A program made the position numbers and the translations under genes. This document shows, piece by piece, positions 1,562 to 33,386 of a stretch of 36,012 nt of DNA. The notes beneath the pieces are model-generated. The model saw only the letters and a list, made by a program, of their open reading frames with translations, was not told the origin of the DNA and made no database searches. Source of the DNA: Candidatus Margulisiibacteriota bacterium (GTDB lineage Bacteria; Margulisbacteria; WOR-1; O2-12-FULL-45-9; XYB2-FULL-48-7). The number at the start of each line of letters is the position of its first letter. Positions within the stretch are counted from its first letter, which is position 1. The DNA is taken from positions 1 to 36,012 of the forward strand of contig JAQVPA010000009.1 of assembly GCA_028702315.1 (NCBI GenBank). Direction: 5' to 3'.

Positions 1562-3256
1562 ATGAGAATGTCGCAGGTGGTGGCGCCGACGCTGCGGGAG
1601 GACCCATCGGAGGCGGAGGTAATTTCCCATAAATTGATGCTTCGGGGCGGTTTTATCCGGAAGCTGGCAGCGGGAGTCTACACATTTTTACCCCTCGGTT
1701 TTCGCGTTCTGAACAAGGTTTCTTGCATTATTCGTGAAGAAATGACCCGGGCCGGCGCCCAGGAAGTCCTGATGCCGACCCTGCTTCCAGCCGAGCTCTG
1801 GCAGGAGACCGGCCGTTGGGATATGTACGGCAAGGAGCTTTTCAGGATAAAAGACCGCCATGACCGCGAATTTTGCCTTGGCCCGACCCACGAAGAGGTC
1901 ATTACCGACCTAGTCCGAACCTCGGTCCGTTCGTATAAGCAATTACCGGTTAATCTCTATCAAATTCAAACCAAATTTCGTGACGAAATCCGCCCCCGGT
2001 TTGGCCTGATGCGCGGCCGGGAATTCATGATGAAAGACGCTTACTCATTTCACACCAGTGAAGAGTCGCTTGATAAAGAGTATAAAAATATGTATGAGAC
2101 CTACTGCCGGATATTCGACCGGATGGGGCTGAAATACCGGGTGGTTGAAGCCGATTCCGGCTTGATCGGCGGCGGCTACTCACAGGAATTCATGGTGTTA
2201 GCGGAGACTGGCGAAGAGGAGATATTCCACTGTTCGCATTGTGATTATTCAGCGAGTAGGGATTCAGCCGGGATTGGCAAATGGAAAGTGGAGGCGGGAA
2301 CTCCGAACTCCGAACTCCGAACTCAAGAACTGCACACCCCGAATGTTCGAACCGTCGAAGAGGTCAGCGCGTTTCTTAAGATCAAACCGTCACAACTGAT
2401 AAAAACTTTGATTTACGAAACGGAAACCGGGCCGATCGCGGCGCTGGTCAGAGGTGATCATGCTATTAATGAAGCTAAACTTAAAAAGGTTGCGGGAGTT
2501 GAAGACCTGCGGCTGGCAGACGCGGCGGTTATCAAGAAGGTGACGAAAGCGCCGGTTGGTTTTGCCGGGCCGGTCGGGCTCAAAGGGGTCAAGATCATTG
2601 CCGATACTGTTGTCCCCCTCGTTGAAGACGGGGCGTCGGGCGCGAATAAAGAAGATCATCATCTCGTCCATATCGCTTATGGGCGTGATTATAAAGCGGA
2701 ACTGATCGGTGATATTCGCTATGCGGTCGCGGCCGATAAGTGCCCGCGCTGTGCCGAGGGGAAATTCGAAGTTTCCCGCGGCATCGAAGTTGGCCATATC
2801 TTTAAACTAGGGACAAAATATTCCACGAAAATGAACTGTGTCTATCTTGACGAGAATAACCAGGAAAAAGTAATGATCATGGGCTGTTATGGTATTGGGG
2901 TGGGGCGGACAGCCGCAGCGGCGATCGAGCAGAATCATGACAAAGACGGGATCCTCTGGCCGGCGCCGATCGCGCCATTCAAGGTGGCGCTTATTCCGGC
3001 CAATACGTCGGAAAAAGAACAGTTGGAGACAGCCGAAAAACTTTACGCTGAGCTTCGATCGGCCGGAATCGAGGTCCTCCTTGATGACCGGGAAGACCGG
3101 ATGGGGGTCAAATTGAAAGATATCGATCTGATCGGGATCCCGATCAAGGTTATCATCGGTAAAGCGCTAAAAGAGGGGAAGGTCGAAGTCAAAGATCGAA
3201 AAACCGGCGAAATGAAGCTGGTAGAGGTAAAAGATGTGCGGAATATTTGCGGTTAG
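1562..3256 (+). CDS. proS: Prolyl-tRNA synthetase, bacterial type with editing domain
   Basis: This cytoplasmic class II synthetase charges tRNA-Pro with proline. The 564-residue product starts MRMSQ and continues TLREDPSEAEVISHKLMLRGG, as is standard for bacterial ProRS. Motif 2 is seen around RDEIRPRFGLMRGREFMMKD (near residue 140-160) and motif 3 at GCYGIGVGRTAAAAIEQNHD (near 440-460). Between them lies a YbaK/INS-type editing domain (about residues 260-390), which clears mischarged alanine; the C-terminal anticodon-binding domain follows. A four-copy heptamer repeat is inserted in frame just before the editing domain. The start ATG at 1562 is preferred over the internal ATG at 1568 because homologues begin MRMSQ. 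The last 23 bases overlap the purF paralogue. Confidence 0.95.
   Translation: MRMSQVVAPTLREDPSEAEVISHKLMLRGGFIRKLAAGVYTFLPLGFRVLNKVSCIIREEMTRAGAQEVLMPTLLPAELWQETGRWDMYGKELFRIKDRHDREFCLGPTHEEVITDLVRTSVRSYKQLPVNLYQIQTKFRDEIRPRFGLMRGREFMMKDAYSFHTSEESLDKEYKNMYETYCRIFDRMGLKYRVVEADSGLIGGGYSQEFMVLAETGEEEIFHCSHCDYSASRDSAGIGKWKVEAGTPNSELRTQELHTPNVRTVEEVSAFLKIKPSQLIKTLIYETETGPIAALVRGDHAINEAKLKKVAGVEDLRLADAAVIKKVTKAPVGFAGPVGLKGVKIIADTVVPLVEDGASGANKEDHHLVHIAYGRDYKAELIGDIRYAVAADKCPRCAEGKFEVSRGIEVGHIFKLGTKYSTKMNCVYLDENNQEKVMIMGCYGIGVGRTAAAAIEQNHDKDGILWPAPIAPFKVALIPANTSEKEQLETAEKLYAELRSAGIEVLLDDREDRMGVKLKDIDLIGIPIKVIIGKALKEGKVEVKDRKTGEMKLVEVKDVRNICG
2298..2325 (+). repeat. In-frame heptamer array in proS
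   Basis: Four consecutive 7-bp units, GAACTCC three times and then GAACTCA, sit in the proS reading frame at about residue 246. They encode TPNSELRT in the linker leading into the editing domain. Three heptamers equal seven codons, so the frame survives. Confidence 0.8.
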
Positions 3257-7975: not shown

Positions 7976-9585
7976 AACGGAAAGTAAAAAGGGTCAAGGG
8001 TCAAGTAGCAAGGGTCAAGGGTCAAGTAGCAAGGGTCAAGAAATATGCTTTGATATCTGTTTATGATAAAACAGGATTAGCTCTATTCGCTAAAGAATTG
8101 AAAGGCCTGGGCTTTGAAATAATTTCTTCCGGCGGGACGGCGAAGTTCTTGCGGGAAAAAGGGATCAAAGTCACTGAGGTCGCCAAGATAACCAAATATC
8201 CGCATATGTTCGACGGGCGGGTCAAGACGCTCCACCCGATGATCCACGGCGGGATACTGGCCGACCGGACCAACCCAAAACACCTGAAAGAGATCAAAAA
8301 ATACAAAATTACACCGTTCGATATCGTGGCCTGCAATCTTTATCCTTTTGAAGAAGTAACATCACGCAAGAATTTTACCCACGAGGAAGCGATCGAGAAT
8401 ATCGATATCGGCGGGCCAACCATGGTCCGCGCTTCGGCTAAAAACCACAAGAATGTTGCCATTGTTGTTGACCCGAGCGATTACAAAAAGCTTATCGAAG
8501 AATTGGCGGCCGAAGGTAAAATATCCAAGTTGACCAAAGAACTCTTAGCTTTAAAGGCTTATAAACACACCGCGCAGTACGACGCGCTGATCGTCCGTTA
8601 CCTGTCGGGCAAGCTCGAAGGGCAGGAAGAATTTCCCAGTGAACTAAGCATTCTACTTGAGAAAATCCAGGACCTCCGCTACGGCGAGAACCCTCATCAG
8701 AAGGCAGCTTTCTACCGGGAGAGGGGGGCGAGGGGTGAGGGACGAATTACTGAAGCTGTTCAACTTCACGGGAAAGAACTTTCTTTTAATAATATTGTTG
8801 ACATGGAAGCGGCCTGGAACTGCGCTAATTATTTTGCCGACCCGACGGTGGTGATTGTCAAGCATACCAATCCCTGCGGCGTGGCTAAGGCGGATACGCT
8901 GGTAGCGGCATATAAAATGGCGTTGGCTTGCGACCCGGTCTCCGCGTTTGGCGGGATCGTGGCCGCCAACCGCCGGATCGACGAGCTGACGGCGAAAGAA
9001 GTCTCCCAACTTTTTGTTGAAGTGATCATTGCGCCGTCGTATACGCCAAAAGCGCTGGATATCCTCAAGGGGAAACAGAACATTCGGATCATGGAGATGG
9101 GGGAAAAGTCGATTAATAAGCCGTTCAAAGGATTTGATTATAAACGGATCAGCGGCGGCTTGCTGGTCCAGGAACCGGATATCGCCCAGCTCGGGATCAA
9201 CGAAATTAAAGTCGTGACCAAGCGCGAGCCGACGATGGCAGAGATGGAAGACCTCTTCTTTGCTTGGGGAGTCGCCAAGTATGTGAAATCGAACACGATC
9301 GTTTATGCCAAGGATGGGCGGACGATCGGCGTTGGGGCGGGGCAGATGAGCCGGATCGATTCGGCCGAGATCGCGATCAAAAAAGCCAAAGGGAATGTCA
9401 AGGGGACAGTATTAGCCTCTGATGCATTTTTCCCTTTTCCTGACGTTGTTGAACTAGCCGCTAAAGCCGGTGTGACAGCAATCATTCAGCCGGGAGGATC
9501 GAAGAATGACCAATTATCGATTGACAAAGCGAACGAAGCCGGGATCGCGATGGTTTTTACCGGCCGTCGGCACTTTAAGCACTAA
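7972..9585 (+). CDS. purH: Bifunctional AICAR transformylase / IMP cyclohydrolase
   Basis: PurH performs the last two steps to IMP. The N-terminal MGS-like cyclohydrolase domain begins KYALISVYDKTGL, with IISSGGTAKFLREKGI, VTEVAKITKYPHMFDGRVKTLHP and NLYPFEEV following. The transformylase domain carries RYGENPHQKAAFYRE and the catalytic VIVKHTNPCGVA (Lys-His near residue 297), and ends FTGRRHFKH as expected. Before the first domain lies an extension of about 22 residues, RVKGQVA twice, encoded by seven heptamers; no in-frame start lies after it. A short G-rich stretch also interrupts the loop after HQKAAFYRE. The start overlaps purN. It ends exactly at the AAGGAGG that serves the porin. Confidence 0.96.
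   Translation: MKRKVKRVKGQVARVKGQVARVKKYALISVYDKTGLALFAKELKGLGFEIISSGGTAKFLREKGIKVTEVAKITKYPHMFDGRVKTLHPMIHGGILADRTNPKHLKEIKKYKITPFDIVACNLYPFEEVTSRKNFTHEEAIENIDIGGPTMVRASAKNHKNVAIVVDPSDYKKLIEELAAEGKISKLTKELLALKAYKHTAQYDALIVRYLSGKLEGQEEFPSELSILLEKIQDLRYGENPHQKAAFYRERGARGEGRITEAVQLHGKELSFNNIVDMEAAWNCANYFADPTVVIVKHTNPCGVAKADTLVAAYKMALACDPVSAFGGIVAANRRIDELTAKEVSQLFVEVIIAPSYTPKALDILKGKQNIRIMEMGEKSINKPFKGFDYKRISGGLLVQEPDIAQLGINEIKVVTKREPTMAEMEDLFFAWGVAKYVKSNTIVYAKDGRTIGVGAGQMSRIDSAEIAIKKAKGNVKGTVLASDAFFPFPDVVELAAKAGVTAIIQPGGSKNDQLSIDKANEAGIAMVFTGRRHFKH
7991..8039 (+). repeat. Seven heptamers encoding the PurH N-terminal extension
   Basis: Seven 7-bp units run without a break: GGGTCAA, GGGTCAA, GTAGCAA, then the same three again and a final GGGTCAA. 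Together they form a 21-bp super-repeat that encodes KGQVARV twice. They lie between the purH start codon and the conserved domain. Confidence 0.85.
8720..8742 (+). repeat. G-rich repeat-like insert in a PurH loop
   Basis: A purine-rich stretch with repeated GAGGGG and GAGGG words encodes ERGARGEG between HQKAAFYR and the conserved QLHGKELSFNN. Homologues have a variable loop here. It resembles a decayed tandem repeat, but no clean period is visible. Confidence 0.35.
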
Positions 9586-9596
9586 GGAGGGGGAAA

Positions 9597-10895
9597 ATGA
9601 CAAATGACAAATTAAAAATGACAAATGTTGGTGTGCCTGCGGCACATTATTTAAATAATGTCGCGAAGCGACTCATTCATTTGACATTTGTCATTGGACA
9701 TTTGACATTGATGGTGGTTCTTTTGACGGCGGCCGCTTATGCCGAGACCCTGCCGCTGGAAATTTTGCCGATCACCACAAAGGTATCCAGCGGGACCAAT
9801 GTACCGACCCAGCTCCAATCAAACATTGGCGGGATGAGCATCGGCTACGTCAAGGTCGGCACCCAGGATGTTTTTTCTCTTGACTGGCGACCTGATTTCA
9901 AGATTGGGCCATGGGGACTCGGTTTTGATGTCAATCTTGGCCTCGGCGATAATAAACCGGCCGGTTATGAAAACCTGGTTATCCGGTATGCCGAATACGA
10001 CGACAGCAAAAAAGGCCTCCGCTATGGCGTGCTTGATAATGTCACGCTTGGCCATGGCTTGATCATGAGTAACTATTCGACCCGACTCGGCAATCAGGTC
10101 CTCTTGACCAACGAACAGGTCGGCTTGAAAGGTTATTATGATTTCGAGCGGGGAGTTGCCCGGGTGATGGGGACAAAATCGAATATTTATTACGCCAGGG
10201 CTGAAGAGCGGATCAATCCGGTTCTAACCTTGGGCCAATATTATGTGGTTGACTCGACCGGGCGCAAAGTTACGCTCCCCGGCGGAACGACCCAACAGTA
10301 TTCACCCGTCTCGGCAATCGGCGTCGACGCCACCTACCAGCTGCCCGCTAATTGGCAGGCTTACGCGGAAGCCGGCCAGCTGATGAATTACGGGAACGGT
10401 GTAACCGCCGGTTTGTCCTGGGCTTATGATGCAATGGTGGCCAATCTAAATTTTTCCGCCGAGTATCGGATGCTCGACAAGGGTTTTGTGCCGAGCTATT
10501 TTGACGTCGATTACGAAACTAACCCGGTCAATCTTTCTTCGGCGGAAGCTTCGGGCCAGGCGAAGAACGGCTACCTTGCCCAGCTCGGGGTCAACGCCCT
10601 TGGCTTAGCAACCTTGACCGCGGCTTACGAAAGTTATCAGGGGAGCAATTCGACTTTGACTGCTGACTTGAGCGCGAAACTTAGCGATCAGGTTAGCTTG
10701 TCCGGTTATTATAAACAGCCGAACTTTGTCGACTACCGCTCGCTCACGCTTGAAGAAGGATCAATCTTAGGGGCGGACATAGCGATCAAGATAAACCCAA
10801 TGACCACTTTGGTTACGCATTACAAGAAAGCGTGGGATCCGGCGCTCGGCAAGGTTGCTTCGACGCAGTATTATGAGGTTGTGTTCAGCTTCTAA
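9597..10895 (+). CDS. Outer membrane beta-barrel protein, porin-like
   Basis: The 432-residue product has a hydrophobic export segment, HLTLMVVLLTAAAYA, ending near residue 49, then alternating polar and hydrophobic strands rich in Tyr, Gly and Asn. It ends YYEVVFSF; a terminal Phe is the usual signal for the BAM assembly machine. Motifs such as RYGVLDNVTLGHGLIMSNY suggest a transmembrane barrel of unknown cargo. The ATG has AAGGAGG six bases upstream, overlapping the purH stop. The N-region before the hydrophobic core is unusually long (about 30 residues) because it is encoded by an inverted heptamer element; the right arm encodes part of the core itself. The last 11 bases overlap the convergent tsaC gene. 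Confidence 0.75.
   Translation: MTNDKLKMTNVGVPAAHYLNNVAKRLIHLTFVIGHLTLMVVLLTAAAYAETLPLEILPITTKVSSGTNVPTQLQSNIGGMSIGYVKVGTQDVFSLDWRPDFKIGPWGLGFDVNLGLGDNKPAGYENLVIRYAEYDDSKKGLRYGVLDNVTLGHGLIMSNYSTRLGNQVLLTNEQVGLKGYYDFERGVARVMGTKSNIYYARAEERINPVLTLGQYYVVDSTGRKVTLPGGTTQQYSPVSAIGVDATYQLPANWQAYAEAGQLMNYGNGVTAGLSWAYDAMVANLNFSAEYRMLDKGFVPSYFDVDYETNPVNLSSAEASGQAKNGYLAQLGVNALGLATLTAAYESYQGSNSTLTADLSAKLSDQVSLSGYYKQPNFVDYRSLTLEEGSILGADIAIKINPMTTLVTHYKKAWDPALGKVASTQYYEVVFSF
9598..9711. repeat. Heptamer inverted-repeat element encoding the porin leader
   Basis: The left arm has TGACAAA, TGACAAA, TTAAAAA and TGACAAA (9598-9625). The right arm has CATTTGA, CATTTGT, CATTGGA and CATTTGA (9678-9705), reverse complementary to the left. 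Between them lie three small hairpins in a row: GTGCC/GGCAC (9633-9645), the perfect palindrome at 9646-9659, and GTCGC/GCGAC (9660-9672). The whole element is in frame with the porin and covers its start codon. Confidence 0.85.
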
Positions 10896-12572: not shown

Positions 12573-12995
12573 TTACCCCACCTCATCCCGTTTTGGTGCC
12601 TGAATGATATTTTGTCGTTTAAGCCCTTCTCCATTGCTATGGAGAAGGGGGAGATTTTCTTTTATTTTTAGCAAGACCGATCTGGTATCATTTAAGAGCT
12701 GGTCATTGCTAAAGCGCAGGAGCTTTACGCCATGACTGTTAATAATTTGGTCTCTGGCTTTATCGTAATCTTTCCTCTTATTATGAATGGCGCCATCTAG
12801 TTCGATGCCAAGCATAATTTCCGGACAATAAAAATCAATAATAAAACCGCGAAATAAATATTGCCGCCGGAACTTTACGCCTTTGAATTTTCGGTCACGA
12901 AGATGCCGCCAAAGATATTGTTCTGCGGCCGTTTGATTTTTCCGGAGTTCCCGGGCGCGGAGGATTTTAGCGAATTTTTTATTGGGTGTTGTCAT
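12573..12995 (-). CDS. DUF559 (PD-(D/E)XK nuclease-like) protein
   Basis: About 140 residues, starting MTTPNKKFAKILRAREL. The family signature is clear: RKNQTAAEQYLWRHLRDRKFKGVKFRRQYLF, then IDFYCPEIMLGIELDGAIHNK and VKLLRFSNDQLL. The Asp of IDF and the ELD motif match the PD-(D/E)XK (Vsr-like) nuclease fold, but nuclease activity of DUF559 proteins is little tested. I chose the ATG at 12995 because an extended -10 (TGATATAAT, 13011-13003) ends 7 bases before it; an open frame continues upstream through repeat units. The last residues (QAPKRDEVG) are encoded by another copy of the same repeat. The gene and its flanking repeats look like one mobile unit. Confidence 0.8.
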   Translation of the reverse strand: MTTPNKKFAKILRARELRKNQTAAEQYLWRHLRDRKFKGVKFRRQYLFRGFIIDFYCPEIMLGIELDGAIHNKRKDYDKARDQIINSHGVKLLRFSNDQLLNDTRSVLLKIKENLPLLHSNGEGLKRQNIIQAPKRDEVG

Positions 12996-13245
12996 TGAAA
13001 TAATTATATCATCCTCATCCCAGTTTGGAGCCAATTGAATATTCTTCGTAATAATTCTTCTCCAATCCTCATCCCGGTTAGAAGCCAATTTAATATTCTT
13101 TGTTAAAGCCCTTCTCCATCGGGGATGGAGAAGGGTGTATTTGATAGATAGAACTTAAAAAAGAACCCACCCCTCTCCATTTTCAATGGAGAGGGGCTTA
13201 AAAGATAATTATAATCGACTGGGAGAAAAACTGGGGTGAGGATTC
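12581..13245. mobile_element. Repeat-bounded DUF559 element
   Basis: Three 34-bp units in the same orientation begin CCTCATCCC (12581-12614, 13013-13046, 13067-13100). The last two match at about 30 of 34 positions, and the first is more diverged. Three strong hairpins are also present: CCCTTCTCCAT stem (12624-12649), CCCTTCTCCATC stem (13109-13135) and CCCCTCTCCATT stem (13170-13196), all perfect over 11-12 bp with loops of 3-4 bases. The set brackets the DUF559 gene. On the minus strand the last hairpin is followed by TTCTTTTTT and may act as a weak terminator for thrC. No target duplication was found, so mobility is inferred. Confidence 0.6.
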
Positions 13246-18512: not shown

Positions 18513-20654
18513 ATGGAGCGTAAAGTTTACCAGGAACTTGGTTTAAAAGACGACGAATACAAGCGGATCTTAAGCATCCTCAAGCGCGAACCGACCCCGA
18601 CGGAACTGGCGATGTTTTCCGTTGAATGGTCGGAGCATTGCGGCTACCCGCGCTCACGAAAATGGCTAAAATTATTTCCCCAAACCGGTAAATACCAGTC
18701 GCTAGTCGGTGAAGACGCGGGTGGTTTTGTTTATGACGACACCGCGATCATCTTTAAGATGGAATCGCATAACCATCCCTCCCAGGTCGAACCGAAACAA
18801 GGGGCCGCGACTGGGGTAGGCGGCATCCTGCGCGATATTTTTACGACTGGCGCCCGGCCGATCGCCCTTTTTGACTCGCTCCGCTTCGGCAAGATCGATA
18901 ATCCGTTCAATAAATATATTTTTAACGGCGTTATTGACGGGATCCAATTTTATGGCAACTGCGTTGGTGTCCCAACTGTTGGCGGCGAGATTTATTTTGA
19001 TGATTCATATTCTGGGAACTGTTTAGTTAATGTAATGTGCATTGGTGTTTGCCCTAAAGATGAGATCGCGAGAGCCAGGGCGGTCGGCGTTGGCAACCCG
19101 ATCATCTACGCCGGGTCAAAGACTGGCCGCGACGGGATCGGCGGTTGTTCGATCCTCGCTTCTTCCGAATTTGAGGCCGGCGAGATTGAAAAACGGCCCA
19201 CAGTCCAAGTTGGTGACCCTTTCACCGAAAAATGCCTGATCGAAGCGACACTTGAATCGCTCAAGACCGGTGTCGTCCTCGGCATCAAGGATATGGGAGC
19301 GGCTGGCCTTACCTGTTCGTCGGCCGAGATGGCGGCGGCAGGGGATGTTGGGATCGAAATAGATCTGGACAAGATCCCGGTGCGCGAAGAGGGGATGGAG
19401 CCGTGGGAGATCATGATGTCGGAGTCGCAGGAACGGATGCTTTTATGCGTGGAAAAGGGGAAAGAAGAGAGGATCCTCAAAATTTTTAGAAAATGGGGGC
19501 TCGATGCTGTTGTCGCTGGTAAAGTTCTCAAAGAAAAGAAAGCGGTAATTAAATGCAAAGGCACGGTCATTGCGGACGCACCGACGGAAGGGTTGGCCCA
19601 GGCGCCGATTTATGATATGGCCTTCAAAAAGTCAAAAGTTAAAAGTCAAAAGTCAAAAGTGTTGTCGGGGAAAAATCATAATAAGACATTAATTAACCTG
19701 CTAAGCGACCCGAATATTGCCAGCAAAAAGTCGGTTTATGAGCAATACGACCATATGGTCCAGATCAATACTGCCGTCTATCCCGGCGGTGACGCGGCGG
19801 TTTTGCGGATCAAGGGGAAGGATTGGGGGATCGCCGCGACGACCGATTGCAACGGCCGCTATTGCTACCTCGATCCTTATACCGGCGCGCAGATCGCGAT
19901 CGCCGAAGCGTGCCGCAACCTGGTCGTGACCGGCGCCGACCCGGCCGCGGTTACCGATTGCCTCAACTTCGGCAACCCGGAAAAACCGGACCGCTTCTAC
20001 CAGTTCAAATCGTGCGTCGAAGGGATCGTTGATGCCTGCAAATATTTTGAATTGCCGGTCGTTTCGGGCAACGTCTCTTTCTATAACGAAAGCCCGAAAG
20101 GGGCGATCTACCCGACCCCGACGATCGGGATGGTTGGTATTTTGAAAGATATCGATCACCGTTGCTCTGTTCCCTTTAAGGAAGAGGGTGATATCATTGT
20201 TCTTCTGGGGCATAATAAAGAAGAGGAGGGGGAATTGCCGGAACTCGACCTCGACATGGAAAAGAGGGTGCAAGCCGCCTGTCTTGAGGCGATCCAGATT
20301 GGGATTGTTAAGTCGGCTCACGACCTGTCAGAAGGGGGGCTCTCGGTCGCGCTGGCTGAATGCGCGATCCTTTCAGGGAAAGGGGCTTCTGTTAATTTAT
20401 CGGATAAGATCAATAACGCGTCACTTTTGTTTGGTGAAACGCAATCGCGGATCATTTTGACGATCGCCCCAGACAGTATCTTTTCCCTTTCCGACGTTGC
20501 GATGCTTTACGAGATACCATGTAATATTATTGGTAAAGTCGGCGGCAAATCGCTGGTGATTTCCAAAGGAAAGAAAAAATTGGTTAATCAGCCGGTAACT
20601 AAGCTAGCAGAGACATATTTTTCTGCCATACCAAATCTTTTAAAGAAGGCCTGA
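18513..20654 (+). CDS. purL: Phosphoribosylformylglycinamidine synthase, large subunit (small PurL type)
   Basis: PurL makes formylglycinamidine ribotide from FGAR and ammonia, which PurQ supplies with the bridging help of PurS. The 713-residue length is that of the stand-alone PurL used with PurQ and PurS, not the 1300-residue fused type. Seen motifs: FSVEWSEHCGYPRSRKWL, FKMESHNHPSQVEPKQGAATGVGGILRDI, KDMGAAGLTCSSAEMAAAG and, in the second half, CNFG-like TDCLNFGNPEKPD and SAHDLSEGGLSVALAE. A five-unit heptamer array is inserted in the linker between the halves. PurQ and PurS are not in this window. The next gene overlaps by one base (TGATG). Confidence 0.96.
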   Translation: MERKVYQELGLKDDEYKRILSILKREPTPTELAMFSVEWSEHCGYPRSRKWLKLFPQTGKYQSLVGEDAGGFVYDDTAIIFKMESHNHPSQVEPKQGAATGVGGILRDIFTTGARPIALFDSLRFGKIDNPFNKYIFNGVIDGIQFYGNCVGVPTVGGEIYFDDSYSGNCLVNVMCIGVCPKDEIARARAVGVGNPIIYAGSKTGRDGIGGCSILASSEFEAGEIEKRPTVQVGDPFTEKCLIEATLESLKTGVVLGIKDMGAAGLTCSSAEMAAAGDVGIEIDLDKIPVREEGMEPWEIMMSESQERMLLCVEKGKEERILKIFRKWGLDAVVAGKVLKEKKAVIKCKGTVIADAPTEGLAQAPIYDMAFKKSKVKSQKSKVLSGKNHNKTLINLLSDPNIASKKSVYEQYDHMVQINTAVYPGGDAAVLRIKGKDWGIAATTDCNGRYCYLDPYTGAQIAIAEACRNLVVTGADPAAVTDCLNFGNPEKPDRFYQFKSCVEGIVDACKYFELPVVSGNVSFYNESPKGAIYPTPTIGMVGILKDIDHRCSVPFKEEGDIIVLLGHNKEEEGELPELDLDMEKRVQAACLEAIQIGIVKSAHDLSEGGLSVALAECAILSGKGASVNLSDKINNASLLFGETQSRIILTIAPDSIFSLSDVAMLYEIPCNIIGKVGGKSLVISKGKKKLVNQPVTKLAETYFSAIPNLLKKA
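19627..19661 (+). repeat. In-frame heptamer array in purL
   Basis: Five 7-bp units, AAAAGTC, AAAAGTT, AAAAGTC, AAAAGTC and AAAAGTG, are read as KSKVKSQKSKV in the linker between the two PurL halves, next to YDMAFKK. The frame is maintained on both sides. Confidence 0.85.
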
Positions 20655-22592: not shown

Positions 22593-24863
22593 GTGGACAG
22601 ACCGTTGGTGTGGATAACTGGTGCGTATGCTATTGGAATCATTATCGGTAAAGCATTAAATATGCCGATAATAGTTACCTCTATTATTTTGCTGATATTT
22701 TTAATCCTCGCATTATACGCCATTATTAATAAACTTAACTTCTCCTATTTTCTTATCGCTCTTTGCTTAATTGTAGGCGCTTTGTCTTATCAAACACGAA
22801 ACATTCCAGATAAGAACGATATCTCCAACTATGTGGATAAGGGCTATCTGACCATAACTGGGATGGTTGATAACACGCCGAAGGAAAAGAACGGGAAAAT
22901 TTCGTTTCCTTTAAAAGCTGAAACACCGGGGAAGGGTAAAGTTTATGTTTCACTACAAGGGAGCTTGAACGACCTTCAATATGGCGACCGGATCGAGGTG
23001 CGAGGCGTTATCTCCCAAAGCGACCAATATGTCAATCCGTTGATGCCTGAAGGGAAAAAGATATATTTTCTGAGCTCTTATTATTGTAAGAAGCTTTCCA
23101 GCGGAGGCGGCAGCGAACTTAAACGCCTTAGTTTGTGGTTAAGCTTTCACTTTAATCGAGTCTTGAACTTAGTCTTACCGCAGAAAGAAGCGTCACTCCT
23201 CGGCAGTATCTTGCTGGGCAGTTCGGTTTCGCCTCTTCCCAGCGAAATGCAGGAAACTTACCGCCAGGCTGGGTTGATCCATTTATTAGTAGTGTCCGGA
23301 ACCCAGGTCTCCATTCTAATCGGTGTCTGTTTAGGGATTACGAGAGGAGTTGGTTTGCCCTTATGGCTGGCGGTGGTGGTGACTTCATTCTTAAATCTAC
23401 TGCTAGTTGTTATGACGGGAGCAGGGGCCTCGATCCTTCGTGCGGCGATCATGGGGGAGACAGCCCTGGTCGGGCTCCTTTTCGAGCGGCAAAAGGAGGT
23501 TTATACGGCACTCGCGCTTTCTGCCCTGATCCTCTTGATCGTTGACCCAATGACTCTGTTCGATATCGGTTTTCAGCTTTCGTTCCTGGCGACCTGGGCG
23601 CTGGTTTACATCGCGCCGGTCTTGCAGCAAAAATTGCCCCAACTCCTTGCCATTTCCTTAGCCCCAATCATTGCGACCGCGCCGGTTATTGCTTTAAACT
23701 TCAATCAAATAACCCCGGGAGCGGTTATTTCCAATCTTTTGGTCTTGCCGTGGGTTGAATTCTTGGTTATCCTCGGTTGCTTAACAACTCTGCTTGGCTT
23801 CATCTTTTTGCCGTTGGCCCAAATACTTGGCAACACGATCTGGCTGATGTTAACGATCCTGGATAAAATTGCCGGTTTTGTCGCGGCCATGCCGGGCGCC
23901 TGCTTTTACATCGGTGTTCCGTCTATTCCTTTGGTTGCCGCTTACTACGTTGGGCTGATTTCGCTGATTGAACTAAGATCGGTCCGTTTTCGTTTAGCTT
24001 TGATCGGGCTGATAATTATTTTTGTTATCACTTGGCAAGGAGCGCTGGCCCCGGCTAGTTTGGGTGGAGGGGAAATGGTCGTGACTTTTATCGATGTGGG
24101 ACAGGGGGACTCTGTTTTAATAGAAACTCCGGAAGGAAAAAAGGTACTGATCGATGGCGGCGGGATCGATGGCACGAAAGAGATTGAAGAGGATAAAATC
24201 GGGTCAAAGGTTGTTGTCCCCTTTTTGCGAAAGAAAGGTATCAATAAATTGGATTTAGTTGTCTTGACCCACCCGCATGCAGACCATTTGGGCGGGCTTA
24301 ATGTTGTTTTGGATAAGATAAAAGTTGACCAGGTATTGGATAGCGGGCAGACTTATGCCTCTGAAGCATACAAAAGGTTTAGAATGTTGATCAAAGCGAA
24401 CAAAATTAGATATTCAATTGCTAAGGCTGGCGGAATTCTCTCTTTCGGTCAAAACATTAAAGGGTATATTTTAAGTCCAATTAACCCAATGCTTGGCGAT
24501 ACAAATTCCGATTCGATCGTAATGCGCTTGGTTTACGGCGATATTTCCTTTCTGTTCACGGGTGATTTAGAGAAAGAAGGGGAGGAAAGAGTTCTTCAGT
24601 CCACATTCCACAATCCGCATTCCACATTTCTTAAGGTAGGCCACCACGGGAGCTCCACTTCGACTTCGGACGAATTCCTCAAAGCGGTCCGTCCCAAATA
24701 CGCGGTCATTTCCGTTGGGAAACACAACCGTTACCGGCATCCGTTCCCCGGAACTCTTAAAAAGCTGGATTGCACCGGGATAAAATATTACCGGACCGAT
24801 GATGATGGCGGGGTGGTGGTCAGGACCAACGGCCATGAGCTCCAGGTTTTGCCCCGCAAGTAG
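22593..24863 (+). CDS. comEC: ComEC/Rec2-family DNA channel protein
   Basis: ComEC forms the inner membrane channel for single-stranded DNA in natural transformation. The 756-residue product has a DUF4131-like N-terminal region with two membrane segments and an OB-like part (YLTITGMVDNTPKEKNGK), a central competence domain with many membrane helices (LLGSILLGS, LIHLLVVSGTQVSILIGV, GAGASILRAAIMGE, LFDIGFQLSFLATWALVYIAP), and a C-terminal metallo-beta-lactamase domain (FIDVGQGDSVLIETPEGK near 500, LTHPHADHLGG near 558, KVGHHGSSTSTS). The GTG start at 22593 has GGGGTGGG upstream. A heptamer array is in frame before the last motif. The coaE promoter lies inside its 3' end. Confidence 0.93.
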   Translation: MDRPLVWITGAYAIGIIIGKALNMPIIVTSIILLIFLILALYAIINKLNFSYFLIALCLIVGALSYQTRNIPDKNDISNYVDKGYLTITGMVDNTPKEKNGKISFPLKAETPGKGKVYVSLQGSLNDLQYGDRIEVRGVISQSDQYVNPLMPEGKKIYFLSSYYCKKLSSGGGSELKRLSLWLSFHFNRVLNLVLPQKEASLLGSILLGSSVSPLPSEMQETYRQAGLIHLLVVSGTQVSILIGVCLGITRGVGLPLWLAVVVTSFLNLLLVVMTGAGASILRAAIMGETALVGLLFERQKEVYTALALSALILLIVDPMTLFDIGFQLSFLATWALVYIAPVLQQKLPQLLAISLAPIIATAPVIALNFNQITPGAVISNLLVLPWVEFLVILGCLTTLLGFIFLPLAQILGNTIWLMLTILDKIAGFVAAMPGACFYIGVPSIPLVAAYYVGLISLIELRSVRFRLALIGLIIIFVITWQGALAPASLGGGEMVVTFIDVGQGDSVLIETPEGKKVLIDGGGIDGTKEIEEDKIGSKVVVPFLRKKGINKLDLVVLTHPHADHLGGLNVVLDKIKVDQVLDSGQTYASEAYKRFRMLIKANKIRYSIAKAGGILSFGQNIKGYILSPINPMLGDTNSDSIVMRLVYGDISFLFTGDLEKEGEERVLQSTFHNPHSTFLKVGHHGSSTSTSDEFLKAVRPKYAVISVGKHNRYRHPFPGTLKKLDCTGIKYYRTDDDGGVVVRTNGHELQVLPRK
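24602..24629 (+). repeat. In-frame heptamer array in comEC
   Basis: Four 7-bp units, CACATTC, CACAATC, CGCATTC and CACATTT, encode STFHNPHSTF just before the conserved LKVGHHGSS of the metallo-beta-lactamase domain. Confidence 0.8.
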
Positions 24864-31936: not shown

Positions 31937-32611
31937 ATGCCTAAGCTGATAGAACTACTGAACAAGAATAAATTGACCCTGATCGTGGCGCTGCCGCAAA
32001 ACGACTTGGAATTGGCGACGGCAGCCGCTGGGGCCGGCGCTGACGCTTTGCACCTGAGTATAAATTCGGGGGAAACAAGTTCTTTTTCGGTTGAAAAGGA
32101 TAACATTAAAAAGATCATTAAGAAGATCGATCTCCCTGTCGGGTTGGGCATTGGCGGTAAGGATGCCCTTGATGAGGATGAGATCGCTGAAATGATGAGG
32201 CTTGGACTTGATTATGTGGATTTGCCGGTGTCTGCGTTACCGGAGTCGATCAAAAAATCTAAAAAACTTGCCAAGATCGTTATGCTTGACAGCCGGTTTG
32301 TGCTGAATGATGTTCATAATCTGTCCAGCCGGGGGAGTGAAGCGATTGACGCTGCGATCATTCCAAATAGCGGGCATGGGAGCAACCTGGTTGTCGGCGA
32401 CCTCCAAAATTATATTGCCATCATCATGTCGGCTGGCATTCCGGTCATTATCCCGACCCAGCGGTCGATCAAGATATCGGAAACGGCGATCATTGCCGAC
32501 ACCGGGGCTAAAGGGTTAATGCTGACCCAGGTCGCGACCGGCACCACCGCCGCCCATATTGAGCGGGCAGTGAGAGAGTTCCGGGCGGCAATTGATGACC
32601 TTGGTGAATAG
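31937..32611 (+). CDS. Small TIM-barrel-like protein of unknown function
   Basis: The 224-residue product reads as a (beta/alpha)8 barrel: LTLIVALPQ, ADALHLSINSG, LPVGLGIGG, LDYVDLPVSALP, KIVMLDS, IDAAIIPNSGHGSNLVVGDL, IPVIIPTQ and the late phosphate-type loop DTGAKGLMLTQVATG before a final helix. The strand order resembles the NanE and KGPDC-type phosphate-binding barrels, but the residues are not close enough to name a reaction. AGGAGAG stands before the ATG. The gene is 41 bases after dapA, probably in the same transcript. Its stop codon begins the heptamer element that encodes the next protein's signal peptide. Confidence 0.65.
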   Translation: MPKLIELLNKNKLTLIVALPQNDLELATAAAGAGADALHLSINSGETSSFSVEKDNIKKIIKKIDLPVGLGIGGKDALDEDEIAEMMRLGLDYVDLPVSALPESIKKSKKLAKIVMLDSRFVLNDVHNLSSRGSEAIDAAIIPNSGHGSNLVVGDLQNYIAIIMSAGIPVIIPTQRSIKISETAIIADTGAKGLMLTQVATGTTAAHIERAVREFRAAIDDLGE

Positions 32612-33386
32612 TAACGCGGGACGCGTAACGCGGAACGGGTACATTGTACGCGTTACTCTATTCGCGTTACTCGTTAATTTATTAATTATTCCCGCTTACG
32701 CTTTCTCCTTCGCTGTCCTCGGTGATAGCTGCGATGGTAAACAAGTATTCAATGATATTGTCGATAAGATCAACCGGGATAAAGAACTCTCTTTTGTTGT
32801 CAATCTTGGCGATTTTGTTTCAACCGGGCAACCAGCTCAGTATAATGAGTTCAAGAAAACGGTTAGTCGCTTGAAAATCCCTGTTTATAACGCCCTGGGG
32901 AATCACGATGGGATCTACGGCGGTTGGAAAATATTCCGAAAAATGTTTGGTCCCTCATATTATTCCTTTGATTTTGATAATTCGCACTTTATTGTTTTGG
33001 ATAATGCTTTTAAGGAAAGCTTTGATCGCGACCAGTTTGAATGGCTGAAGCTTGACCTGACGTTGAGCCGGGCCGAACATAAGTTTGTTTTTATGCATAA
33101 GCCGGTTTTTGACCCTTCGGCGATCTATAAAGACTATATTATGTCGGGCAGGGCGGTGACCGAAGAATTAATGGGCTTGTTCCAAAAATATAAAGTTGAT
33201 TATGTTTTTGCCGGGCATATTCATGGTTATGCTAAATCAAAGCGGGATGGAGTCACTTACATTATCAGCGGGGGTGCCGGTTCACCGCTCCGCCTGCCGC
33301 CCGAGTTTGGCGGATTCTATCATTATGTTAAAATAGAGGTTGATGGCAGCAAAGTCAATGACCAGATCATCAGGCCATATGAATAA
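32595..33386 (+). CDS. Exported calcineurin-like metallophosphoesterase
   Basis: The protein has an N-terminal signal peptide (YIVRVTLFALLVNLLIIPAYA, then FSFAVLGDS) and the metallophosphoesterase motifs: GDS near the mature start, NLGDFVST, LGNHDGIYG, FMHKPVFDP and the late AGHIHGYAK. The domain hydrolyses phosphoester substrates in the periplasm, which one unknown. About 260 residues. Start is uncertain: ATG at 32595, GTG at 32604 or TTG at 32592; no Shine-Dalgarno decides it. Most of the n-region and signal core is encoded by a heptamer inverted repeat. It overlaps the upstream barrel gene and its stop overlaps the following gene by 8 bases. Confidence 0.8.
   Translation: MTLVNSNAGRVTRNGYIVRVTLFALLVNLLIIPAYAFSFAVLGDSCDGKQVFNDIVDKINRDKELSFVVNLGDFVSTGQPAQYNEFKKTVSRLKIPVYNALGNHDGIYGGWKIFRKMFGPSYYSFDFDNSHFIVLDNAFKESFDRDQFEWLKLDLTLSRAEHKFVFMHKPVFDPSAIYKDYIMSGRAVTEELMGLFQKYKVDYVFAGHIHGYAKSKRDGVTYIISGGAGSPLRLPPEFGGFYHYVKIEVDGSKVNDQIIRPYE
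32611..32680. repeat. Heptamer inverted-repeat element encoding a signal peptide
   Basis: The left arm has GTAACGC, GGGACGC, GTAACGC and GGAACGG (32611-32638). The right arm has GTACGCG, TTACTCT, ATTCGCG, TTACTCG and TTAATTT (32646-32680), the reverse complement theme CGCGTTAC. It is in frame with the metallophosphoesterase. Confidence 0.85.

Follow-up and report, generated by a model that had tools for sequence, protein, structure and literature searches.

The phylum Margulisbacteria is regarded as related to the Cyanobacteria, in which heptameric repeats have long been known. Tandem repeats with 7-bp units include the STRR heptamers of cyanobacteria, which form several families, and the TAACTGA repeats of Beggiatoaceae; for such heptamers, the consequences for reading frames have been considered, and a protein might accommodate such inserts at either of its ends (PMC4679880). 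The arrays described here are similar in that tandem 7-bp units far exceed other periods. However, the TAACTGA repeats are mainly intergenic, whereas a large share of the arrays here lies in frame within conserved genes, with a bias toward signal peptides. In P6b of the Nostoc tRNA-Leu intron, one slot holds either of two classes of 7-nt motifs, and one class has repeatedly been replaced by the other (PMC4476775). Here, too, different 7-nt motifs occupy the same structural slot, although the slots are protein-coding rather than part of an RNA intron, and the families are many rather than two.

Palindromic repeats within genes are represented by the Rickettsia palindromic elements (RPEs), reportedly described by Ogata in 2000. 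These elements, about 105-150 bp long, are read in frame as parts of conserved protein-coding genes (PMC10969869, PMC2229807). The elements analysed here are also palindromic and in frame within protein genes, but they are built from heptamers and are about 62-70 bp long, and are thus set apart from RPEs by the described lengths. We know of no heptamer structure in RPEs. In enterobacteria, the RU-2/YPAL element forms part of the signal peptide of YPO1552 (PMC2759123); that is a single described case involving a 168-bp element, whereas the phenomenon here is recurrent, statistically supported, and shows turnover between genera. REP/RAYT systems share with our elements the character of short dispersed palindromes, but here the elements are composed of heptamers and are often in frame in genes, and no Y1_Tnp domain (PF01797) was found in this 90% complete genome, the controls being positive. 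A reverse transcriptase (PF00078) was likewise not found in this 90% complete genome.

In comparison with these systems, we regard the Margulisbacteria arrays as a variant of cyanobacterial heptamers and RPEs. A literature search of incomplete coverage found no paper on such arrays in Margulisbacteria. In this work, we focus on a repeat at the start of a metallophosphoesterase gene in a window of 36,012 nt, which allows the idea that repeat DNA supplies functional parts of bacterial proteins to be tested.

The repeat in the metallophosphoesterase signal peptide

The features of the window are listed in Table 1. The start of the metallophosphoesterase gene is supported because many orthologues begin at the equivalent ATG, where they overlap the preceding gene's 3' end. 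In the window, the TAG stop codon of the upstream gene (32609-32611) is situated where the repeat has its left edge, in overlap with the metallophosphoesterase start. The N-terminus has the features of a Sec signal peptide, namely a charged n-region, a hydrophobic core and an AxA-type cleavage motif, and export is predicted from these features together with 25 orthologues, in which a signal peptide and a junction of the FSFAVFGD type are present. The cleavage site itself is placed, as a prediction, by the AYA motif. Among the orthologues, signal peptides with repeats and signal peptides without repeats both occur.

Table 1. Genes, repeat elements and heptamer arrays of the window
Feature	Position	Strand	Basis or remark
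GAACTCC array in frame within ProRS	2275..2323	+	Array scan; relatives hold other 7-mer families there
AAGGGTC array, N-terminus of PurH (cytosolic)	7989..8039	+	Array scan
AAATGAC/GTCATTT inverted heptamer arrays, signal peptide of porin-like gene 9597-10895	9595..9708	+	Array and inverted-repeat scans
AAAAGTC array in frame within PurL	19627..19659	+	Array scan; relatives hold other 7-mer families there
TCCACAT-type array in frame within ComEC-like gene	24597..24627	+	Array scan
Upstream gene, 224 aa	31937..32611	+	No Pfam match
Calcineurin-like metallophosphoesterase, predicted to be exported, 263 aa	32595..33386	+	PF00149 match; start ATG 32595
Predicted signal peptide MTLVNSNAGRVTRNGYIVRVTLFALLVNLLIIPAYA, then mature FSFAVLGD	32595..32702	+	Sequence and relatives
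Dispersed palindromic heptamer element, GTAAC family, central TACATTGTAC	32610..32671	+	82% identical to family consensus over 62 bp
Left arm AGTAACGCGGGACGCGTAACGCG; codes for part of the polar, Arg-bearing n-region	32610..32632	+	Inverted-repeat pairing
Right arm CGCGTTACTCTATTCGCGTTACT; codes for RVTLFALL, front half of hydrophobic core	32649..32671	+	Inverted-repeat pairing, translation

The repeat is in frame with the metallophosphoesterase and covers codons 6-26. The first-pass annotation had placed a heptamer inverted repeat inside this signal peptide, and this is borne out: the two arms, of 23 nt each, are 78% complementary; the folding energy is -31.9 kcal/mol compared with -20.2 for shuffles (z = -4.5, with 0 of 200 shuffles equally good); TRF finds a period-7/14 array at 32611-32641; and the element belongs to a family dispersed in the genome, so that the 62-bp repeat is not due to chance. 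For the signal-peptide region as a whole, comparison with shuffles gave p = 0.016.

The same annotation held that a repeat arm encodes the core RVTLFALLVNL, which stands with one qualification. The units GTACGCG TTACTCT ATTCGCG TTACTCG TTAATTT occupy 32646-32680 and read V-RVTLFALLVNL in the frame of the ATG at 32595; the palindromic arm, however, gives RVTLFALL only, and VNLLIIPAYA, which completes the hydrophobic core and includes the AYA motif, lies outside the arm and is not repeat-made. These units are indeed unrelated to those of the porin-like gene, as had been claimed. The further statement that two of the three clear signal peptides in the window are repeat-made is a fair description, the signal-peptide gene at 227 being the one without an array.

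The family element is a palindrome of about 62-70 bp made of 7-bp units. A 301-bp query around the repeat gave 26 matches genome-wide, and the family was found at 36 places in a 605-kb sample of the genome. A 69-bp consensus, AGAATAGAGTAACGCGAGACGCGTAACGCGTACATTGTACGCGTTACCCGTTACTCTATTCGCGTTACT, compiled by visual comparison of the copies, has many matches in this genome and also matches one relative (G004, see below). Copies sit both between genes and in frame within genes, and two further N-terminal hydrophobic segments carry them, one in an Omp85 protein (L052) and one in a membrane protein (L054). In relation to MITEs, which combine terminal inverted repeats with target-site duplication, the observation is an imperfect palindrome.

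Heptamer arrays in this genome and its relatives

We sampled 605 kb of this 1.53-Mb, 90% complete genome (G000) and 338-400 kb from each of four relatives (G002-G005). Arrays were counted by period; a strict hairpin scan yielded few elements and was unsuitable for counting. The 605 kb of this genome contain 91 period-7 arrays, compared with 0-3 for periods 5, 10, 11 and 13, and 17 for period 8. Period-7 arrays number 70 in G002, 41 in G004, 23 in G005 and 3 in G003. The last (L084-L103) belongs to the same family and consists of a single contig; with 3 arrays in 400 kb it is nearly array-free and makes a natural comparison genome in the search for the responsible machinery.

In this genome, 33 of the 91 arrays are intergenic and 58 overlap genes; per length, intergenic DNA is still the densest. 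When arrays and hairpins are combined (n = 147), 68 are intergenic, 65 lie within genes, 10 at 5' ends and 4 at 3' ends. The inverted repeat at the start of the porin-like gene, with a score of 24, ranks top among all sampled gene starts.

In-gene arrays are typically about 30 nt long; KSKVKSQKSKV, ALRVTRYALR and RVKGQGAR are examples of the peptides they encode. Because 7 is not divisible by 3, reading a perfect heptamer array in any of the three frames yields one and the same cyclic heptapeptide; for example, a GTTACTC array reads as the cycle V-T-R-Y-S-L-L. Consequently, an orientation without stop codons is open in every frame. For 69 of the 117 in-gene arrays in four genomes every sense frame is open, and for 36 every antisense frame is, which fits this arithmetic combined with selection against the stop-bearing orientation. 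A single genome can carry dozens of repeat segments read in frame within housekeeping enzymes, which matters for annotation and for the question of array origin.

We consider it probable that the repeat at the metallophosphoesterase start is a copy of the dispersed palindrome, and that heptamer arrays multiply by some process and survive where the protein sequence is permissive, with no part of an exported protein being more permissive than its signal peptide. A short palindrome of 7-bp units would have landed, or been rewritten, at this gene start. Arrays would generally be spread by copying and then filtered by selection; in cytosolic enzymes the survivors would lie in loops and linkers, and in exported proteins they would sit chiefly in the signal peptide. 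Signal peptides are degenerate in sequence, and the repeat may persist there because charge, hydrophobicity and a cleavage motif are needed rather than a fixed sequence. This degeneracy appears to have been exploited repeatedly, by unrelated short repeats in different genera. Spread combined with a filter of permissiveness is the simplest account.

Arrays at orthologous positions

The main alternative is active rewriting, by slippage with homogenisation within arrays or by gene conversion between arrays, which would swap families at fixed slots and continually rebuild signal peptides. It is favoured by the behaviour of PurL and ProRS, in which the family at a given position differs among most array-bearing genera (the exception being GAACTCC, shared by G000 and G004 in ProRS), while slot lengths differ by only 1-2 codons between genera, including relatives without clear arrays. 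Across all sampled orthologues, arrays occupy the same slot in 58 out of 158 directed comparisons, where 5.6 would be expected; each pair is counted in both directions, and the number of independent pairs is about half. This excess over chance speaks for rewriting and for the preferred account alike.

Exported proteins provide further examples. In the signal peptide of an AMIN-Amidase_3 protein, G004 has CTTTCTA-type units and G005 has ATTCGTC, while G000 has none; in a solute-binding lipoprotein, G004 carries both AAATCCA and GTCATTT and G002 carries neither these nor other units. A protein that we take to be PorV-like (Pfam gave SLH for a paralogue) carries TGCTTAC in G004, CATTGGT in G005 and CATTTGT in G002. 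In the porin, G000 carries AAATGAC/CATTTGA and G002 carries AACATCC/GGTTTGA, and the repeat content of another lipoprotein differs between G000 and G004.

The metallophosphoesterase slot holds the GTAAC family in G000, G002 and G005, and unrelated palindromes or none in other relatives. The three genera share the scaffold GTAACGXG..ACGXGTAACGXG, in which X is C, A or G and is uniform within each genome, which speaks for rewriting. Over 24 orthologues, the hairpin scores of the slot are suggestive at most (p = 0.09) and its period-7 content is significant (p = 0.0007), although T-rich composition may lie behind part of the period-7 signal. At this start slot, L010, L012, L014, L015, L018, L024 and L029 have unrelated GC-rich palindromes of the GGAAACCGCGACGTTnAGTCGCAGGTTTCC or CCCTCTCCC..GGGAGAGGG type.

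Against rewriting, the similarity of families within genomes barely exceeds that between genomes (the values for unit pairs with at least 6 of 7 matches are 0.05-0.12 and 0.04-0.10, respectively, a weak difference), some slots resemble clean insertions of about 12 codons, and no enzyme was identified. Family switching at constant length is therefore suggested by the sequences but unproven, and we regard active rewriting as possible, though doubtful. We are equally tentative about its broader form, in which a heptamer-generating process would continually rewrite the signal peptides and linkers of the clade, orthologous slots switching 7-mer family while frame and function are kept.

Arrays at signal-peptide gene starts

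The permissiveness account, which we prefer, gives signal peptides a particular place, and the first-pass annotation had likewise raised an enrichment of repeats at signal-peptide codons relative to other gene starts. Counting reveals such an enrichment in sampled stretches of four genomes. When an array is required to have its midpoint inside the first 40 codons of a protein of at least 80 aa, in the sampled stretches of the four array-rich genomes, 11 of 205 signal-peptide genes have one compared with 8 of 911 cytosolic genes (odds ratio 6.4, p = 1.2e-4, a value to be read with the knowledge that this tight definition was picked after the result of a looser count had been seen). The looser count, which took any 9-nt overlap, among them arrays situated mostly ahead of the start, and also covered the array-poor G003, gave no significant enrichment (8/297 versus 18/1178; odds ratio 1.8, p = 0.21), and thus the size of the enrichment varies with the definition of the count. 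The tight-count enrichment holds for array thresholds of 11-16 and hydropathy cut-offs of 1.7-2.1, and in the same count the other control periods showed no significant difference between signal-peptide and cytosolic genes. Strong inverted repeats, with a score of at least 13 within the first 50 codons, occur in 8 of 213 signal-peptide genes and 2 of 894 cytosolic genes (p = 5e-5).

These counts are small and come from partly sampled genomes with home-made gene calling, and signal peptides were called by a simple hydropathy criterion. A problem arises here: an array in the hydrophobic core can itself produce a signal-peptide call. When only arrays that barely touch the core are considered, about 4 signal-peptide genes remain against 8 cytosolic genes, which is not significant alone. 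However, most of the array-bearing signal-peptide genes either are exported according to independent evidence (an Omp85/BamA-like protein, an SBP_bac lipoprotein, an AMIN-Amidase_3 protein and an SLH protein) or have array-free orthologues with signal peptides, so that the confound is reduced, not removed. Misassignments also exist: one of the 11 matches, the QueH-like L162:83, has a wrong start, and L143:15672, counted as cytosolic, is actually exported; the effects roughly cancel. Since arrays also lie in frame within cytosolic enzymes, the result indicates a bias toward signal peptides, not an exclusive role.

Array density bears on a further alternative, in which mainly intergenic arrays spill over gene edges and are tolerated by signal peptides without any special link to export. 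In the four genomes, exported proteins have 0.53 arrays/kb in the first 40 codons and 0.026/kb in the remainder, while cytosolic proteins have 0.07/kb and 0.15/kb, respectively. The mature parts of exported proteins are thus almost array-free, though cytosolic interiors are not. Spill-over would agree with the highest array density being found between genes and with the unrelated GC-rich palindromes at the metallophosphoesterase start in other relatives, but cytosolic gene starts are poorer in arrays than interiors, which means that gene starts as such are not favoured; we therefore consider this explanation unlikely.

It is very unlikely that the palindrome has a further role in the DNA or RNA itself, such as that of a hairpin which regulates how the coupled downstream gene is translated: although its fold is stable and it sits where the two overlapping genes are coupled, the overlap is kept in orthologues without any hairpin, the arrays in enzyme interiors are mostly single-armed, and an Rfam search gave no match. 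Highly improbable is the idea that insertion of a hairpin running from A-rich to T-rich creates an export signal at once, reading as a polar n-region and then a hydrophobic core; the left arm is A-rich (A minus T > 0) in 7 of 8 strong signal-peptide hairpins, but intergenic hairpins are signal-like in 10 of 105 cases in that orientation, 14 of 105 in reverse and 9 of 105 when shuffled, so that the orientation idea is largely refuted.

Other repeats were observed in the same material. Long two-armed arrays of the AAATCC/GGATTT and AAAAGTC/TTTTGAAT types, such as those at L067:1683-1779 and L045:9425-9522, represent additional palindrome families, each of which has its own loop sequence. In the window, a 54-bp tandem duplication with 81% identity (13011-13118) overlaps the start region of the reading frame at 12573-13088.
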